A stretch of 50,071 nucleotides of DNA, from the NCBI GenBank assembly GCA_903901045.1, contig CAIUPP010000091.1, positions 1 through 50,071 of the forward strand, in the 5' to 3' direction. The position numbers were made by a program, and so were the translations under genes. Positions 1 to 42,943 of the stretch are shown piece after piece. The notes beneath the pieces were generated by a model. It had not been told where the DNA came from. It made no database searches and saw only the letters and a list, made by a program, of their open reading frames with translations. The DNA comes from an uncultured Planctomycetota bacterium (lineage in GTDB: Bacteria; Planctomycetota; Brocadiia; CAIUPP01). Every line of letters starts with the position of its first letter. Within the stretch, counting starts at the first letter, position 1.

Positions 1-90
1 CGGCTCCAGCGCGGCGGGGGCCGCGCCCAGCGGCGCGCAGAGCGCGACCGCCAGCCCCAGAATCAGGAGCATGCGGATGGGGTGCTTCAC
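1..90 (-). CDS. Secreted or outer-membrane protein, 5' fragment (next gene of the T2SS operon)
   Basis: Only the first 30 codons lie in the window. The GTG start overlaps the gspK stop (GTGA), and a strong Shine-Dalgarno, AAAGGAGG, sits 7 bases upstream. The fragment begins VKHPIRMLLILGLAV and continues as a typical Sec signal peptide: basic N-terminus, Leu/Ala-rich core and an A-P-L-G-A-A cleavage region. After gspL, gspM and gspK in the same operon, the secretin GspD or GspN would be reasonable guesses, but nothing visible identifies the mature protein. Confidence 0.75.
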   Translation of the reverse strand, partial: MKHPIRMLLILGLAVALCAPLGAAPAALEP

Positions 91-1013
91 GGGTTATCCT
101 CCTTTGAAATCGACGAAACGCTGATCAGTTCGACGGCGCTTCCACCGCGCCTGACAAGGGCGTTCAGGCCGCCGTGCGCCCCCGCAGCGGCCGGGGTGAC
201 GCGCACGCTGAAATAGTTGCTGCGCACCGCGAACAGCGGCGCGTACACCGCCGCCACCTCGGGCGCCATGAGCGTCTTGAAAAACGCCTCCACGTCGTTC
301 GAACTGGCGAAGCTCTGGTTGGCGCGCCGCTCGCGCACCGCCTGGCCGACCCCCAGCGGGCCCCAGAGGGCGTCGAGCACCAGGTCCGCGGCGGTGTTGA
401 TATTGAGCGTCCGCGGGTGCGTCGAGAGCAACTCGTAAAGAGAGGTGCACTCCTCCCCGCCGGTCAGCAGCCTGCGGTCCAGATTGGGGATCGCCGCCAG
501 CGCGCCGATCACCGGGATCGGAACCTTGGGGGCGGTCGCGTCGCCGGTTCCCGCCGTATCCGGGTCCACCCAGGCGCGCAGCGCCGCGGCATCGTCGTCG
601 GTGCCTCCGGCGGCGGCCACGAGGCGTCGCAGCGGCTCGCGCAGGTCCAACTGGCTCTCATCCGCGGGGCGGCGCGCCGCGCGGTTCACATTCAGCTTGC
701 GGTCCTCATCCACGATGCGCAGGTTGAAAAGGTCCTCCCCCACCGTCACCTGCAACGTGGGGCTGTTCCATGCGTCGTTCAGCGTATCCGGCGCGGTCGA
801 AGAGGCATTGCGAAGCAGCGCGCAAGCCCACGTCAGCGCCGACTGCTCCCCCGCGTCCAGCCGCGCCGCATCCCGGCTGTTGCGCGCCGCCGCCGCGTTC
901 ACCCCCGCGCCGTAACTGAAGGCGTAGCCCAGCAGCACCAGGATGCCCAGGATGAGCATGGTCATGATGAGCACGATGGCTCGGTCATTCCGTCGGGGCT
1001 GCAGCCGATTCAT
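87..1013 (-). CDS. gspK: Type II secretion minor pseudopilin, GspK-like
   Basis: This is a 308-residue protein with a short basic leader followed by a hydrophobic helix (about residues 13-35, IVLIMTMLILGILVLLGYAF), as in GspK, which caps the T2SS pseudopilus tip. The body has features usual for the T2SSK family: an LNVN segment near residue 107, an RAWVDPD motif near 145, and an LNINTAADLV helix-hairpin-like segment near 200. The start overlaps the 3' end of the gspM-like gene by 29 bp, and the stop overlaps the next start, so translation is probably coupled. The usual prepilin-peptidase signature (G before the hydrophobic stretch) is not clear, because the leader reads RRNDRAIVL. The family call rests on pattern and context together. 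Confidence 0.75.
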   Translation of the reverse strand: MNRLQPRRNDRAIVLIMTMLILGILVLLGYAFSYGAGVNAAAARNSRDAARLDAGEQSALTWACALLRNASSTAPDTLNDAWNSPTLQVTVGEDLFNLRIVDEDRKLNVNRAARRPADESQLDLREPLRRLVAAAGGTDDDAAALRAWVDPDTAGTGDATAPKVPIPVIGALAAIPNLDRRLLTGGEECTSLYELLSTHPRTLNINTAADLVLDALWGPLGVGQAVRERRANQSFASSNDVEAFFKTLMAPEVAAVYAPLFAVRSNYFSVRVTPAAAGAHGGLNALVRRGGSAVELISVSSISKEDNP

Positions 1014-1515
1014 AAGCGCTGATCTCTGCCTTGGCGTCCAGCATGGACGATTTTTCGCTGTTGAGGGTGATCACCAGCAAGCGCGTGCGCACCGCCGGGT
1101 CCAGCGCCTCCACGGCGCGAAGGAAGTTCACCAGTTGCGTCGTGGCCACCCCCTTCATCGAGAGGCTGACCACCTGCTCGCGCGTCTGGTCCGTATGCTT
1201 CTCCACTTTGACGCTGGTGGAGGCGATGCGTTCCACCACCTTCTGCTCCCGCGCCACCCGGTCCACCGCCTCGGCGTTGAAGCGGCTGTTGGGGGCCAGG
1301 AACTTCAGGCCGCCGGAGCCCGCCGGCCCGCGCAGCGCCTGGACCTTTCCGGCGATCCGCTCCATCTCGACCAGCCGCGGCTGATGCCGCACCGCGAGCG
1401 CGCGCACCTTGCCCAGTTGCACGAGCAGCGCCCCCTCCAGCAACAGCGCCGCCGCCAGCCCCACGGAGAGGGCGGCGAGCGTCGGAGAGTCCTGGGCCCA
1501 TTGGCGCAAGTTCAT
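985..1515 (-). CDS. GspM/PilO-like inner-membrane T2SS component
   Basis: The product has 176 residues. The chosen start is the ATG that overlaps the upstream stop as ATGA; the longer open frame upstream is only a shadow of the previous gene. It has a short cytoplasmic N-terminus (MNLRQWAQDSPTLAA), one transmembrane helix (about residues 13-35), a coiled stretch, and a small periplasmic domain with a VSLSMKGVATTQLVNFLRAVE segment. That segment resembles the ferredoxin-like domain of PilO/GspM. GspM partners GspL in the inner-membrane platform. The assignment relies on size, topology and position between gspL and gspK. Confidence 0.65.
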   Translation of the reverse strand: MNLRQWAQDSPTLAALSVGLAAALLLEGALLVQLGKVRALAVRHQPRLVEMERIAGKVQALRGPAGSGGLKFLAPNSRFNAEAVDRVAREQKVVERIASTSVKVEKHTDQTREQVVSLSMKGVATTQLVNFLRAVEALDPAVRTRLLVITLNSEKSSMLDAKAEISAYESAAAPTE

Positions 1516-2984
1516 TTGTATCGCACCTCCATGGCGAAGGTGGTGACGCCCCCCTCGGCGGTGCGCAATTCGCTCGGCGGACTCGGCAGCAGCAAGGCGG
1601 ACTTGCCCAGCACCTTCTGAAGCTCCCACGCCCGCCCGCGCTCCTTGCAGCGCGCGCGCAGCGCGATCCGCTTGGTGTTGATATCGATGGACTCCAGCGT
1701 GATATCCGGCGGCGTAAGCCGGATCAGTTCCATCCAGCTCCCGACGGCGGAACCGTGGTCGCCGCCGGCGCCCGCCCCCTGCTTTTCCAGCCGCGCAAGC
1801 GTCCCCTTCATGGCGTCCAGGGAGGGCGCTCCCTTTGCCGTGGGAACCACCTGGCTGTAGAGTTCCATCTCGCGGCGCTGGCCGGCGCTCTCCGCGGTGT
1901 GCGCGTCAATCAACTGGCGCACGCTCCAGACGCCCAGCAGCAGCACGATGCCGATCGCCATCCCCAGCGCAACCGCCGCGCGCCGCTCGTAGCGCAGCGC
2001 GTGCGCCGGATGCGCGAACTCTCCCTGAAGCAGGCTCGGGGCCAGATGCGCCTTGTCCTCCGCCTGCGCGGCGATCCCCCAGGCGGCAGCAAACGCCGCT
2101 CCCCCCGTCTCCTCCGGCGGCGGCTCTACCGCCAGCCCCGTCGCGGCGGACAATGCCGCCTTGAGATGCGCCTCTTCCGCCGGCCCATCCGCAGCGCCGC
2201 CTTGCGAAGGCTCGTTTAGCCCTTCGCAAGGCTTGTCGCCATTCGGTTGCAGGGGCAAGGCATGCCTTGTCCCCGCCGAGCCGGGCCGCGCGTCGGTCCG
2301 AATGAGAATGCACCGCTCGAAAGCGAACTGCCCCCAGGAAAGCTCCATGGCGCTCAGCGCAAAGCGCAGGCGCTCGGCGAACGCCGCCGCGCCGGCCGGG
2401 CTGTTCAGTCCCTCGGCCGGCAGCGGAGACAGAACCTCCGCCGCGACCAGCTCCCCCTGCTGCATCACCGCCAGCTCCGCTTCCTGCCCGATGCGCACAA
2501 TCAGGGCATTCGGCGCGGCACTCCCCAGCCGCCGCGCAAGCGCCAGCACCGCAGGCTGCACCACGCAGGGGTGCGCCCCGGCCTCTTTCAATTGCATCAC
2601 GAGGTCGCGCACCTTCTCCTTCGGGCAGGCGGCGACAGTCAGGCGGCATCCCTTCTCCCCCGCCGCGCGCGGCTCCGAAAGCGCGTCGATGCAGTACTCC
2701 TCGACCGAACCGGCCAGCCGCCCCTCCAGCGCATAGCGGAACGTGGCCGCCACGCGCCCCGGCGCGTTGTATGGCAGGGAAATGGTCCGATAAAGGCACC
2801 AGGAGGAGGGAACCGCGACGCCCCACACACAGTGGCGCACCCCCAGCGTTTCAGCCAGTTTCGCAATAGGCACGCGGCCGGCATCGAGGGGCAGCTCCGC
2901 CGTTTGCGCCGCCCCGCCCGCGCGCGCCCGCCCCAGGCGAACCGCTCGAACCGTGTCGCCGCTGATTTCGAGACCGACAATCAT
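1512..2984 (-). CDS. gspL: T2SS assembly platform protein GspL-like (PilM-type actin fold plus periplasmic domain)
   Basis: The product has 490 residues. The start ATG (MIVGLEISGDTVRAV) is preceded by GGAG at 8 bases and opens directly into the PilM/GspL actin-like first strand; a longer frame to 3026 adds only unsupported residues. The cytoplasmic ATPase-like region covers about residues 1-320. A transmembrane helix follows at about 333-355 (AAVALGMAIGIVLLLGVWSV), then a periplasmic ferredoxin-like domain. GspL bridges the GspE ATPase to GspM. Residues about 236-262 form an unusual linker (TRHALPLQPNG, then PCEGLNEPSQGG) encoded by two palindromic repeat elements inserted in frame. Confidence 0.75.
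   Translation of the reverse strand: MIVGLEISGDTVRAVRLGRARAGGAAQTAELPLDAGRVPIAKLAETLGVRHCVWGVAVPSSWCLYRTISLPYNAPGRVAATFRYALEGRLAGSVEEYCIDALSEPRAAGEKGCRLTVAACPKEKVRDLVMQLKEAGAHPCVVQPAVLALARRLGSAAPNALIVRIGQEAELAVMQQGELVAAEVLSPLPAEGLNSPAGAAAFAERLRFALSAMELSWGQFAFERCILIRTDARPGSAGTRHALPLQPNGDKPCEGLNEPSQGGAADGPAEEAHLKAALSAATGLAVEPPPEETGGAAFAAAWGIAAQAEDKAHLAPSLLQGEFAHPAHALRYERRAAVALGMAIGIVLLLGVWSVRQLIDAHTAESAGQRREMELYSQVVPTAKGAPSLDAMKGTLARLEKQGAGAGGDHGSAVGSWMELIRLTPPDITLESIDINTKRIALRARCKERGRAWELQKVLGKSALLLPSPPSELRTAEGGVTTFAMEVRYK
2200..2231. repeat. In-gene palindrome, family 2 (CCTTGCGAAGG hairpin)
   Basis: There are perfect 11-bp arms, CCTTGCGAAGG and CCTTCGCAAGG, separated by 10 bases. The element lies inside gspL and is read as PCEGLNEPSQ. 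A related copy is inside addB at 5918-5947. Confidence 0.8.
2252..2274. repeat. In-gene palindrome, family 1 (GGGGCAAGGCATGCCTTG)
   Basis: This is a near-perfect palindrome within gspL, 20 bp from the family-2 element, read as TRHALPLQ. The same core occurs at 4135-4162, 4535-4560 and 23371-23398, with degenerate forms near 10031 and 25074. Confidence 0.85.
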
Positions 2985-3033
2985 CCGCCATGCTCCGGTC
3001 GGAAAGGCTTCCCAGAATATCCCCAATACTACC

Positions 3034-3063
3034 AGTATATGATTTTAGCTGGAAAAAGGACAA
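3034..3063 (-). promoter_or_regulatory. Candidate sigma70 promoter for the gspL operon
   Basis: Read on the minus strand there is TTGTCC, an 18-base A/T-rich spacer, then TATACT (5 of 6 to consensus). It lies about 45 bases upstream of the gspL ATG. This is a pattern match only; the -35 box is weak. Confidence 0.45.
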
Positions 3064-3121
3064 CTGTTTTGGTAGTGCGCCAGATGCAGCGAGGCATTAT
3101 AGGGGCCGTGATGAATTGACG

Positions 3122-3173
3122 GTCATTGCGAGGCCGCCCCTGAGCGAAGTCGAAGGGGACGGCCGTGGCAATC
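3122..3173. repeat. GTCATTGCGAG-type inverted repeat
   Basis: GTCATTGCGAG at the left pairs loosely with TGGCAATC at the right. Inside, GCCGCCCCT pairs with AGGGGACGGC around a short loop. The layout resembles the 204-bp element at 44340-44543 (GTCATCGCGAG ends, GGCGATCTTC core), so they may be one family. Confidence 0.6.
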
Positions 3174-3225
3174 TTCCAGTCTTCCGTTGCCTTCGTCGTC
3201 GTCGCCGCCGTCGTCCGTCCAAACC

Positions 3226-3260
3226 GCAAATCAGTAATCGCCAATCGCAAATCCTCCGTC
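3226..3260. repeat. Period-7 degenerate array (GCAAATC type)
   Basis: Consecutive heptamers read GCAAATC, AGTAATC, GCCAATC, GCAAATC, CTCCGTC. This is one of several spacer arrays in the window that share a 7-bp period but not a sequence. Confidence 0.6.
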
Positions 3261-3287
3261 CCCCGGATGCCGCGTGTCACCCCCTTG

Positions 3288-3296
3288 TGTTATGAT
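3288..3296 (+). promoter_or_regulatory. Extended -10 element directly upstream of addB (possible leaderless start)
   Basis: TGTTATGAT combines a TGn extension with TATGAT (5 of 6). The addB ATG is 7 bases downstream of the box, so transcription would begin at or next to the A of ATG. No Shine-Dalgarno is visible before this ATG. No good -35 is seen. Confidence 0.45.
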
Positions 3297-3303
3297 TTCC
3301 GCC

Positions 3304-6300
3304 ATGGAAAAGAAAGGGACATCTCAGCCGGAGCGCCGCCTGCTGCACGGGAGTTTCCCGGAGTTGGAGGAGGCGTTTCTCCGCGAAACCGCCGCACTGC
3401 GCCGGGCCGACCCGCTCGCGCCGATGGTGGTGCTGGTCCCGAACCAGATGCTGCGGTTCCACCTCGCGCGGCGGCTGGCCACGGCGGGCTGTCCGCACAC
3501 CAACATCCTCTTCCACACGCTCAACAGCCTCGCGCAGCGGATGGCCGCCGACGCGCTGGCGCTCGAAGGGAAGTCCCCCCTGCCGGAGTTCTGCGCCGAA
3601 CTGGCGCTGGCGCGCGCGATCCAGGAGGGCGGCGCGCTGGAGTACTTCGCCCCGGTCGCGGCGAAGCGCGGCTTCCAGGCCGCCCTGCTGGCGACCTGCC
3701 GCGACCTGAAGGATGCCGTTCTGACCCCCGCGGGACTGGAGCGCGCGCTGCGGGGGCTGTCGAATCGCGACCCGCTCCGCCCCAAGTTGAGCGACGTAGC
3801 GCGCCTCTGGCGCGATCTGGAATCGGCGAAGTCGGCGCGCAATTTTTACGACGAGGCGGAGTTGCTGGACCGCGCCGCGCGCGAGGCGGCCGGCGGCGGC
3901 TGGATGCGCCAGTTGGCGCGCCTCGCGATCTACGGTCTCTACGACTTCAACGCCGCGCAGGCGCGCTTCCTCTCCGCCTGCTGTGACCAGGCCCCCACGA
4001 CCTCCTATTTCCCCTGGCGCGACGAGCCCCTTTTCCGCTACGCGCGCCCCGCCTATGAATGGTTCCGCGACCGCGGCTTCGTTCCGCAGCCGGCAGTCCC
4101 CTTCAATTCGGACCGCAATCCGCAGTTCGTCTTTGTAGGGGCAAGGCATGCCTTGCCCTTACAAGAGGATGCGCTGCCGACGATGAAGTCACCCGAGATA
4201 CTCTTGCTCAGCGCGCCGGGGTCAACCAGCGAAGCGGAAGAAATCGTGCGCGAGATCGTCCACTCGGAGCAGGCGGACCCTCACGCGACCTTCGGAATCC
4301 TGCTGCGCTCGACGGAACCGTACCGCTCGGTGTTGACGGAACTCTTTGACGGCGTGCAGCTTAAGGGCTACTTCCATGGCGGCCTCCCGTTCACCCTCCG
4401 CCCCGCGGGGCATGCGCTCGGGCTGCTGGCGGGGCTGCTCAATGGCCGTCTGCGGCGCGCGGAAGTCATGGAGTTCTTCTTCGCCGCGCCACTGCGCCCC
4501 GAGTCAGAAGCCGCCGCTCCCGCTCATTCCGTCCGTAGGGGCAAGGCATGCCTTGCCCCCGCTGAGGGCACCCCCACTCCTCAACCCCCCGAGTCTTTCC
4601 TCGGAAAACAAGCCGGCCTTCCCGTCGAGCAATGGAACTACTTCACCCGGCGCGCCGGGGTGGTCGAGGGGGCCGAGGAGTGGCGTCGGAACCTGGAGCG
4701 GCTGGCGGAAGAGATGGCGCGCCCCCGGCCGCGCGGTGAGGATGAAGAGCCGCGCGCGGCGGCCCCGGCGGAGCAGGCCTCCCTGGCGGCGTTGCGCGCG
4801 CGCATCCAGCGTCTCTGCGACGGACTCCGCCAGAGCGCGCAGGCGCATTCCTGGGAGGAGATGACCGGCGCGTTTGCCGCGCTCTTCGACGAACTGGTGG
4901 ACGCCGGGGAGGATGCCCCCCACGCGAGAGCGGCGCTGGAGTCCCTCGCCGGATTGGACGTCATGGGCATCCCCCCCACCTCGGAGCTGTTCCAGCAAAT
5001 GCTCCTCGACGCGTTGGAGCGCCCCGTGCGCGGAGCAACGCGCTTCGGCGCTGCAGAGCCCACGGTCGCGGCGCTCATGGAAGCGCGCGGGACGACCTTC
5101 GACGTGGTCATGCTCCCCGGCCTCGTCGAAGGCGCCTTCCCATCCCCCGCCCGGCAAGACCCCGTCCTGCTCGATGCCGAGCGGCTGCGCCTGATGGAGG
5201 CGCTGCGCGCCTGCGGTCTCCCCGCCGAACTCCCGCTGAAAGGGAGACGGCGCGAGGAGGAAGAGATGCTCTTCGCGCTGGCCACGCAGTCGGCGCGCCG
5301 CCGGCTCATCCTCAGCTTCCCCCGAATGGACGCCGCGGACGGCCGCGCGCGCATCCCCTCCCCCTTCCTGCTGAGAGTCGTCGAGTCGCTCACCGGGAAA
5401 CCTGCCGATTACCGCACGCTGGAGGAATTCCTCCGCACCGACCCGCGCGGGCGCTGCGTGGGACTCGGCGCGGACGCCTCGCCGCGCCTTCGCGCACTGC
5501 GCCCGCTGGAGTACGACCTGGCTGCCCTGCAGGAGGCCGTGCGCGCGGGACACTCCGAAGCGCTGCTCTACCTGGGGCAGGTCAGCCCCTTCTTCATGCA
5601 GGCGCTGGAGGCGGAGAGCGCGCGCTGGGGGCGCGGGCAATTCTCCGAGTACGACGGCATGATCCGCCACCCCGCGCTGCTGGCTGCGCGCCCCATCCGC
5701 CGCCACGATGAGGAGGTCGTATCTCCTACGCGCCTTGAGCTTTACGCGCGCTGCCCCTTCGAGTTCCTGATGCGCCAGGTGCTGCGGCTCGAGCCGCTGG
5801 AAGAGCCCGAACGCGTGGCGCGCATCTCGCCGCTGGACCGCGGCTCCCTCATGCACGCGATCCTCTGGGAATTCATGTCCGAAACCGTGAACCGCATCGA
5901 GCCGCTGACTGAGGAACCCTGCGAAGGGCCGAACGAACCTTCGCATGCCCAGCGGCAGACCGTTCTCTCGGAGGACTCCTGGCCCGCTCTCGAAGCAATC
6001 GCGCAGCGGCGCTTCGAGCGCTTCCAGCGCGGCGGGCTGACGGGGTTCCCTCTGATGTGGCGCATCGAGCAGAGCAGGATGCTCCGCGAGTTGCGCCGGA
6101 CGCTCACGCGCCAGGTGCGCGAAAGCGGCGGCTTCCGCCCCGCTCTGTTCGAGGTGCGCTTCGGCCTCCCCGCCGGAGAGGCGGAGGAAAGCGCCTCCTC
6201 GACCAGCCAGCCCGCCCAACTGGAGATCTCCCCCGGACGCCAGGCGCGTTTCGGCGGACGCATCGACCGCATCGACCTCGACCCCGCGCGGCATCTCTCG

Positions 6301-6708
6301 CGCGTAGTGGATTACAAGACCGGCCGTGTGCCGCAGGGCTGGAAGGACAACGGCTTCGCCTGCGGCCAGGCGCTCCAGTTGCCGGTCTATCTCCTGGCCG
6401 CCGAGATGCTTCTGCCGGACGCGCCGCCCGAATTGGCGGAGTATCTCTACCTCAGCGAGCGCTCCGAGAAGCCCGCGCTGCGCTTCGACCGGGAGAGCTG
6501 GCCCGAGAAACTGGCGCAGCTTCGCTTCATCGTGCGGACGATTCTGGATGGCATCGCGCATGGCGAGTTCTTCCCCAGCCAACCCTCGCGCCGCTGCGAG
6601 AACTGCGACTACCGCGCCGCCTGCGGGCATGGATATCGTCTGGATCATAAGTGGAAAGCTGACATAGCGACCGTTTGTAACTACTTGGCCATGAGTGAGA
6701 TAGAATGA
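3304..6708 (+). CDS. addB: AddB/RexB-type ATP-dependent nuclease subunit (PD-(D/E)XK, Fe-S)
   Basis: The product has 1134 residues, the usual size for AddB, which with AddA processes double-strand breaks to 3' overhangs for RecA loading. The N-terminal and middle parts match the inactivated-helicase layout; I see no intact Walker A near the N-terminus. The C-terminal nuclease core shows GGRIDRID and VVDYKTG at about residues 981-1008. The Fe-S staple is complete: one Cys in YARCPFEF (about 817), then C-x2-C-x5-C (CENCDYRAAC, about 1098-1107). The stop overlaps the addA start (ATGA). Three palindromic elements are read in frame: GARHALPL near 277, RRGKACLAP near 410, and EPCEGPNEPS near 871. 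All lie in likely loops. The MEKKG start is preferred over an upstream in-frame start. Confidence 0.9.
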   Translation: MEKKGTSQPERRLLHGSFPELEEAFLRETAALRRADPLAPMVVLVPNQMLRFHLARRLATAGCPHTNILFHTLNSLAQRMAADALALEGKSPLPEFCAELALARAIQEGGALEYFAPVAAKRGFQAALLATCRDLKDAVLTPAGLERALRGLSNRDPLRPKLSDVARLWRDLESAKSARNFYDEAELLDRAAREAAGGGWMRQLARLAIYGLYDFNAAQARFLSACCDQAPTTSYFPWRDEPLFRYARPAYEWFRDRGFVPQPAVPFNSDRNPQFVFVGARHALPLQEDALPTMKSPEILLLSAPGSTSEAEEIVREIVHSEQADPHATFGILLRSTEPYRSVLTELFDGVQLKGYFHGGLPFTLRPAGHALGLLAGLLNGRLRRAEVMEFFFAAPLRPESEAAAPAHSVRRGKACLAPAEGTPTPQPPESFLGKQAGLPVEQWNYFTRRAGVVEGAEEWRRNLERLAEEMARPRPRGEDEEPRAAAPAEQASLAALRARIQRLCDGLRQSAQAHSWEEMTGAFAALFDELVDAGEDAPHARAALESLAGLDVMGIPPTSELFQQMLLDALERPVRGATRFGAAEPTVAALMEARGTTFDVVMLPGLVEGAFPSPARQDPVLLDAERLRLMEALRACGLPAELPLKGRRREEEEMLFALATQSARRRLILSFPRMDAADGRARIPSPFLLRVVESLTGKPADYRTLEEFLRTDPRGRCVGLGADASPRLRALRPLEYDLAALQEAVRAGHSEALLYLGQVSPFFMQALEAESARWGRGQFSEYDGMIRHPALLAARPIRRHDEEVVSPTRLELYARCPFEFLMRQVLRLEPLEEPERVARISPLDRGSLMHAILWEFMSETVNRIEPLTEEPCEGPNEPSHAQRQTVLSEDSWPALEAIAQRRFERFQRGGLTGFPLMWRIEQSRMLRELRRTLTRQVRESGGFRPALFEVRFGLPAGEAEESASSTSQPAQLEISPGRQARFGGRIDRIDLDPARHLSRVVDYKTGRVPQGWKDNGFACGQALQLPVYLLAAEMLLPDAPPELAEYLYLSERSEKPALRFDRESWPEKLAQLRFIVRTILDGIAHGEFFPSQPSRRCENCDYRAACGHGYRLDHKWKADIATVCNYLAMSEIE
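4135..4162. repeat. In-gene palindrome, family 1
   Basis: A 28-bp palindrome starting GTAGGGGCAAGG and ending CCTTGCCCTTAC sits inside addB and is translated as GARHALPL. It is nearly identical to the copies at 4535 and 23371. Confidence 0.85.
4535..4560. repeat. In-gene palindrome, family 1 (second copy in addB)
   Basis: The same palindrome is read in a different frame, giving RRGKACLAP instead of ARHALPL. Both frames are free of stop codons. Confidence 0.85.
5918..5947. repeat. In-gene palindrome, family 2 (addB copy)
   Basis: GCGAAGG and CCTTCGC arms surround GCCGAACGAA. The element is translated as PCEGPNEPSH, closely matching the PCEGLNEPSQ peptide from the gspL copy on the other strand. 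Confidence 0.75.
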
Positions 6709-19968: not shown

Positions 19969-20009
19969 GCAGACGGCGGCAGATGCACGTCGGGCTGAGA
20001 GGAAGCCTT

Positions 20010-20118
20010 TCAGTTCTCAGTTCTCAGTTCTCAGTTCTCAGTTCTCAGTTCTCAGTTCTCAGTTCTCAGTTCTCAGTTCTCAGTTCCCACTGTTCTGCAT
20101 TCTGCACTCTGCATTCTC
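20010..20118. repeat. Heptanucleotide tandem array (TCAGTTC x11, then TTCTGCA x3-4)
   Basis: Eleven exact TCAGTTC units span 20010-20086. A second short array with the same 7-bp period follows (TTCTGCA, TTCTGCA, CTCTGCA, TTCTCAC, about 20093-20118). It fills the gap between convergent genes. It resembles the short tandemly repeated repetitive (STRR) heptamers of cyanobacteria in form, not in sequence. Confidence 0.95.
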
Positions 20119-23370: not shown

Positions 23371-23398
23371 GTAGGGGCAAGGCATGCCTTGCCCCTGC
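23371..23398. repeat. Intergenic palindrome, family 1
   Basis: GTAGGGGCAAGGCATGCC followed by TTGCCCCTGC. This is the intergenic counterpart of the copies inside gspL and addB. Confidence 0.85.
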
Positions 23399-23811: not shown

Positions 23812-24109
23812 CCGCTTGCTCCGACTACAAGGCCTTTCACGGCAAGGGCGTAATCCCTCAGTTACCGTGGGAGACGGCGCGAACACCGGTCGCACCGCTC
23901 GAACGCTGGGGACACAAAACTTCGCTCCGCAAAGTATTGTGTCCCCAGTTCGCGCGCCCTGCGTTCCGCCCGCCAAGACCAGGCGCTCCGCTCTCGCGCC
24001 GTGGGTGGCGCGGACTATCAGTCCGCGTCCCGCGCCGCAGGCGCGGGAAAGTCAGCGGAAGAACGCACGATGATCGCGGGTTGGATGACCCGCGCCACAT
24101 TGCCAGATC
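23812..24109. repeat. Palindrome-rich spacer
   Basis: The gap carries at least three hairpins: the GGGACACAAAACTT element at 23906-23948, CGCGGACT-ATC-AGTCCGCG at 24009-24027, and CCCGCGCC-GCA-GGCGCGGG at 24029-24047. No gene is supported. Confidence 0.8.
23906..23948. repeat. GGGACACAAAACTT hairpin, copy 1
   Basis: There are 20-base arms around TCC. Eighteen of 20 positions pair. An A-A mispair sits in AAAACTT opposite AAGTATT, exactly as in the copy at 42861-42897. Confidence 0.8.
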
Positions 24110-42810: not shown

Positions 42811-42943
42811 TGCTCTGTTGAAACCGTCATGTTCAACAGGCCGGACCGACGGTGGAGCGATCGGGACACAAAACTTTCCTTCGGAAAGTATTATGTCCCA
42901 GCCCTGCCAAAGGCCGCGCCGACGGGATGGTATCAACAGAGCA
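42811..42943. mobile_element. MITE-like 133-bp element with 15-bp inverted ends
   Basis: The ends match at 14 of 15 positions. The interior is dominated by the GGGACACAAAACTT hairpin. There is no coding capacity. It is a candidate nonautonomous element; no target-site duplication is obvious. Confidence 0.45.
42861..42897. repeat. GGGACACAAAACTT hairpin, copy 2
   Basis: There are 17-base arms, GGGACACAAAACTTTCC and GGAAAGTATTATGTCCC, around TTC. Fifteen of 17 positions pair, with an A-A mispair at the same place as in the copy at 23906. Confidence 0.8.

Follow-up and report, generated by a model that had tools for sequence, protein, structure and literature searches.

The repeat described here most closely resembles the GTAG-tagged REP super-family (Di Nocera et al. 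2013, PMC3733652), with which it shares a GTAG at one end, a short perfect stem, a high copy number and a mostly extragenic location. That study reports GTAG-tagged REPs in Chloroflexi and the PVC superphylum and describes some in-frame intragenic copies, including copies in recBCD and pseudouridine synthase genes; it also notes that REPtrons can be absent from REP-bearing genomes. The tnpA_REP genes of subclass 2.4 REPtrons harbor in-frame REPs between HuH and Y (Quentin et al. 2018, PMC6006769). Biochemistry on other RAYTs has shown binding of the folded single-stranded REP, dependence on GTAG and GTAG-guided cleavage (PMC8266576). REPINs (Bertels and Rainey 2011, PMC3116915) are likewise REP-based and linked to RAYTs, whereas the copies studied here are single REPs. 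Palindromes in frame in protein genes are also known from Rickettsia (CGTC-1/CGTC-4; RPE-6, RPE-4), where RPE-4 and RPE-6 repeats terminate in CGTC (PMC3733652). The Rickettsia elements have a CGTC tag and no known transposase, while the present repeat has a GTAG tag and is associated with RAYTs.

REPs inside genes (Di Nocera 2013) and RAYT genes with in-frame REPs (Quentin 2018) are thus already published. Added here are new host genes in a new host organism, the occurrence of an identical 24-mer in at least 34 other genomes and a test that matches RAYT-internal REPs to flanking ones.

The repeat unit and its abundance

The stretch of DNA analyzed (the window, 50,071 nucleotides) corresponds to positions 1-50071 of contig C91, which belongs to a 4.77-Mb genome (154 contigs, 94% complete). 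A preliminary description had placed a 28-bp palindrome once in gspL, twice in addB and once between genes, and all four copies were recovered. The relevant features are as follows.

1512..2984, minus strand: gspL-like gene containing REP copy 1; weak Pfam T2SSL match, slightly below the curated cut-off
2200..2231: member of a second palindrome family lacking the tag, CCTTGCGAAGG..CCTTCGCAAGG; lies in frame within gspL, adjoining REP copy 1; peptide KPCEGLNEPSQG
2249..2276: REP copy 1, decayed, GCAGGGGCAAGGCATGCCTTGTCC; in frame in gspL; peptide AGTRHALPLQ
3304..6708, plus strand: addB, containing REP copies 2 and 3; ADDB_N and PDDEXK_1 domains
4135..4158, plus strand: REP copy 2, exact 24-mer GTAGGGGCAAGGCATGCCTTGCCC (28-bp match 4135-4162); in frame in addB; peptide VGARHALPLQ
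4535..4558, plus strand: REP copy 3, exact 24-mer (28-bp match 4535-4562); in addB, in the other open frame; peptide RRGKACLAPA
5917..5946: second palindrome family, decayed copy; in frame in addB; peptide EPCEGPNEPSH
23371..23394, plus strand: REP copy 4, exact 24-mer (28-bp match 23371-23398); intergenic

The decay of copy 1 consists of a GCAG tag and one mismatch in the stem. No match to the palindrome arose by chance in 100 dinucleotide shuffles of the window. Across the genome, 122 forward matches were found at up to three mismatches, compared with one for a reversed-pattern control, which amounts to about 100 copies where chance predicts none.

To define the unit, 71 distinct copies drawn from 272 kb of genome sequence were aligned. 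Conservation fell abruptly on either side of a 24-bp core, the near-invariance of which is partly ascertainment, as the copies were selected mainly by exact match. The palindrome itself was upheld, but its length was revised from 28 bp to 24 bp: GTAG followed by a 20-nt perfect palindrome, GGGCAAGGCATGCCTTGCCC. GTAG was present at one or more ends in 62 of the 71 copies and at exactly one end in 60. Only two copies carried an intact GTAG at both ends, and the repeat therefore differs from a double-foot REP, the two ends of which are GT[AG]G and C[TC]AC. Outside the core the flanks were near-random, except for a T followed by T or C (TT/TC) immediately 5' of GTAG. As single-stranded DNA the unit is predicted to fold at -8.8 kcal/mol (z -3.0) into an 8-bp stem with a 4-nt CATG loop, leaving GTAG unpaired at the foot; both dimensions fall within those of GTAG REPs (stem of 5-13 bp, loop of 2-20 nt). 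The exact stem does not appear in the main text of Di Nocera 2013 (PMC3733652). Sister lineages of the class carry the identical GTAG tag on stem variants in which both arms are altered together, one family having GTAGGGGCACGGCATGCCGTGCCC and a second GTAGTGGCAAGGCACGCCTTGCCA. At one locus of the same genome (L271; contig C44, positions 148, 325 and 502), the REP recurs every 177 bp with matching flanks, as if inside a tandem repeat.

Copies within genes and their homologues

Location relative to genes was assigned with a codon-usage score trained on the genome itself. By this measure 12 of the 71 copies were in frame within coding sequence (9 clear and 3 weak, one site, L263, being called by codon score alone), spread over about ten genes. 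A further 58 lay outside genes or at gene edges, and one (L255), the coding flanks of which are in different frames, was excluded from the in-gene count. Genes are depleted of REPs, as the same test scored 47.5% of 6000 random positions as in-gene (P value, 7e-8). An in-gene location is the exception, and most copies are extragenic.

All in-frame copies used one of two stop-free readings, GARHALPL (as VGARHALPL) or GKACLAP (as RGKACLAPT), while the third reading meets the TAG stop supplied by the GTAG tag. The earlier observation of two peptides from two frames in the window agrees with this, AGTRHALPLQ and VGARHALPLQ belonging to one frame and RRGKACLAPA to the other. Hosts confirmed by Pfam were MnmA, a class I/II aminotransferase, an OppC permease, an RluD-type pseudouridine synthase, AddB, DUF2400, two PMT-family proteins and a radical-SAM protein, the last of which matches QueE structures. 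Short "extragenic" palindromes are thus able to turn into peptide inserts of conserved enzymes, including tRNA-modifying and DNA-repair enzymes, in an uncultured lineage, and VGARHALPL and RGKACLAPT form a peptide signature that annotators will encounter across unrelated proteins.

Comparison with homologues indicated that the peptides are insertions. In MnmA, 10-11 residues precisely at TGARHALPLP have no counterpart in the solved structures 2der and 9hln, giving a clean gap. In the RluD-type protein, the palindrome belongs to an additional segment located between residues 315 and 392. The peptide of addB copy 3 was missing from all 23 homologues in the class, and no solved structure matched this AddB. 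The closest GspL homologue (in G016) has neither palindromic peptide, and its corresponding stretch is shorter by about 38 residues. In both addB and gspL the extra stretch exceeds eight codons, so the flanking linker differs as well. Clean boundaries, which the preliminary description had hoped for, were obtained for MnmA but not for addB copy 2, where the linker varies too much in length to fix a boundary. It had also proposed that a mobile palindrome was inserted in frame into protein genes, a proposal that homologues carrying the same peptide at the same place would have contradicted; since the homologues of MnmA, addB copy 3 and gspL lack the peptides, the proposal is supported.

Sites in related genomes also change. 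Among sister species of the class with about 96%-identical synteny, one REP site occurs in three states (L302, L307 and L326, in G028, G017 and G037; joined coordinate about 97072): a REP beginning GTAGTGGC, a remnant shorter by 25 bp, and a different REP pair. A deletion could have produced the shorter allele, since part of the REP (GTAGTGGC) is retained there, and the site shows REP turnover rather than a perfect empty site. It was the one resolvable site among these sister species. Of 21 REP sites in a 200-kb stretch of G028, 19 could not be mapped to G017. For the exact 24-mer, no perfect empty site was seen, the nearest relative compared belonging to a different genus of the same family.

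RAYT genes and the spread of the 24-mer

The search for Y1 transposases (PF01797) covered the genome of the window together with genomes that have the 24-mer or a variant form, and 20 genomes were screened with a profile of one RAYT clade. Of the 25 distinct RAYT reading frames recovered, 19 had an MPNHxHG-type motif or were truncated members of the clade. The loop following the HUH strand held an intact GTAG palindrome, in frame, in 18 of these 19 RAYTs, compared with none of six sister RAYTs, and the internal inserts of several RAYTs were facing REP pairs. We assign the clade to a subclass 2.4 type on the basis of this in-frame internal REP, not of a tree with published sequences. Internal REPs were closer to the REPs near their own gene than to those near other RAYT genes (mean distance, 2.6 versus 4.2 of 10 bases; 14 loci; permutation P value, 2.5e-4), and this match offers a simple handle on the co-evolution of a REP family and its enzyme. 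In-frame REPs inside RAYT genes were dropped as a novelty, having been described already (Quentin 2018, PMC6006769); the present data are a confirmation with added statistics, not a discovery.

The exact 24-mer of the window was itself associated with RAYTs of this kind in other phyla. It lies near both ends of a RAYT in the Anaerolineae genome FR_5 (L226) and likewise flanks one in FCPU426 (L182); identity between the RAYTs so flanked in the two phyla is just 49%. Two further RAYTs, similar to each other, carry it inside, in frame (VGARHALPLR).

L058, positions 3324-4010: RAYT in a bin named Dysgonamonadaceae, with the exact 24-mer inside
L080, positions 1-457, minus strand: RAYT in a bin named Helicobacteraceae, with the exact 24-mer inside

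The similarity of this last pair reflects either transfer between phyla or bin contamination. Beyond the genome of the window, the exact 24-mer was found in at least 34 genomes, among them Chloroflexi, Planctomycetota, FCPU426, Bacteroidota and Omnitrophota, some of the records being metagenome bins that are possibly contaminated; in FR_5, however, the copies are carried by contigs as long as 1.1 Mb. Copy numbers of about 30 or more were reached in at least four of the genomes. This sharing could stem from transfer or from convergence, the latter because the REP design leaves few free bases, about six per arm, and an identical 24-mer in many phyla makes the choice between them testable.

In contrast to subclass 2.4 REPtrons, the genome of the window (94% complete) yielded no RAYT of this clade. 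The clade profile gave two weak hits there (E values, 6.5e-6 and 4.4e-4), which belong to another RAYT group. RAYTs of a different group at two loci of this genome (L036 and L250, on contigs C139 and C29) have their own REPs nearby, GTAGCGCGGGCTTTAGCCCGCG and GTAGCGCGGGTTATCAAACCCGCG.

Origin of the copies

Taken with the published systems, these findings make it very probable that the window copies are GTAG-tagged REPs, non-autonomous 24-nt hairpins copied now or formerly by a RAYT of the subclass 2.4 type. The REP would encode no enzyme of its own and would be moved by the RAYT (TnpA_REP, a HUH/Y1 tyrosine transposase). If the biochemistry of other RAYTs extends to these REPs, the enzyme would bind the folded REP on single-stranded DNA, with GTAG guiding cleavage, and the strand would then be joined beside a short target; judging from the flanks, the join here would probably follow TT or TC. 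Insertions would land widely, and selection would purge most of those in genes. Survivors would be in frame, 24 nt being eight codons and two of the three frames being free of stops, and a short peptide, presumably neutral, would be added wherever such a copy sits in a linker or surface loop. As no cognate RAYT was found in the genome, the copies may be remnants of an enzyme that was lost or remained unassembled.

The Rickettsia parallel drawn in the preliminary description fits the behavior of the repeat, since in-frame copies occur in about ten genes, including addB twice and one RluD-type gene. Kinship does not follow: a family of that type, specialized for insertion into protein-coding genes, should favor genes, whereas about 83% of the copies are extragenic or at gene edges, the repeat unit measures 24 bp and the tag is GTAG instead of CGTC (PMC3733652). 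Having the wrong tag and depletion in genes against it, this reading was rejected and is very unlikely. It is no easier to regard the repeat as native low-complexity peptide or as chance palindromes in GC-rich genes. The inserts do sit in variable linkers, but the absence of matches in shuffled sequence, the genome match count relative to its control, the homologues without peptides (those of addB included) and the recurrence of one 24-mer in unrelated genes and intergenic sites refute this reading, to which we attach a negligible probability.

A selected functional site of local origin and no mobility, such as a protein-binding site, a transcription terminator or an mRNA-stability hairpin, would account for a core that hardly varies over 71 copies, and roles of this sort have been assigned to REPs in other species (PMC3733652). 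However, that invariance is in part a product of exact-match selection, copies lie within genes on either strand amid near-random flanks, lineages of the class combine different stems with the same tag, and RAYT genes elsewhere contain the same sequence, so that an immobile site also appears very unlikely. As an extension of the RAYT-copied REP, the internal REP of the RAYT clade might be no passenger but a kept part of the system that changes in step with the surrounding REPs, and its coding-compatible design, 24 nt with two stop-free frames, might have allowed one 24-mer to reach the genes and genomes of many phyla, in part horizontally; we offer this extension tentatively and consider it rather doubtful.

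Other repeats were noticed alongside the REP. The second palindrome family, AACCTTGCGAAGG..CCTTCGCAAGGTT, has no GTAG tag and is represented by 15 candidates in 272 kb, often paired. It reads through gspL, addB and a PMT gene in frame without a stop (peptide PCEGLNEPSQG) and occurs also at L274, L266, L019 and L002. A palindrome-like repeat, GGGGACACAAAACTT..AAAGTATTGTGTCCC, is present at window positions 23896-23945 and 42850-42899; its start, GGGGACAC, fits the GGGGWSAS motif of TIRYT-flanking terminal repeats (PMC3733652). Finally, window positions 19996-20103 are occupied by a tandem array with the unit TCAGTTC (period 14).
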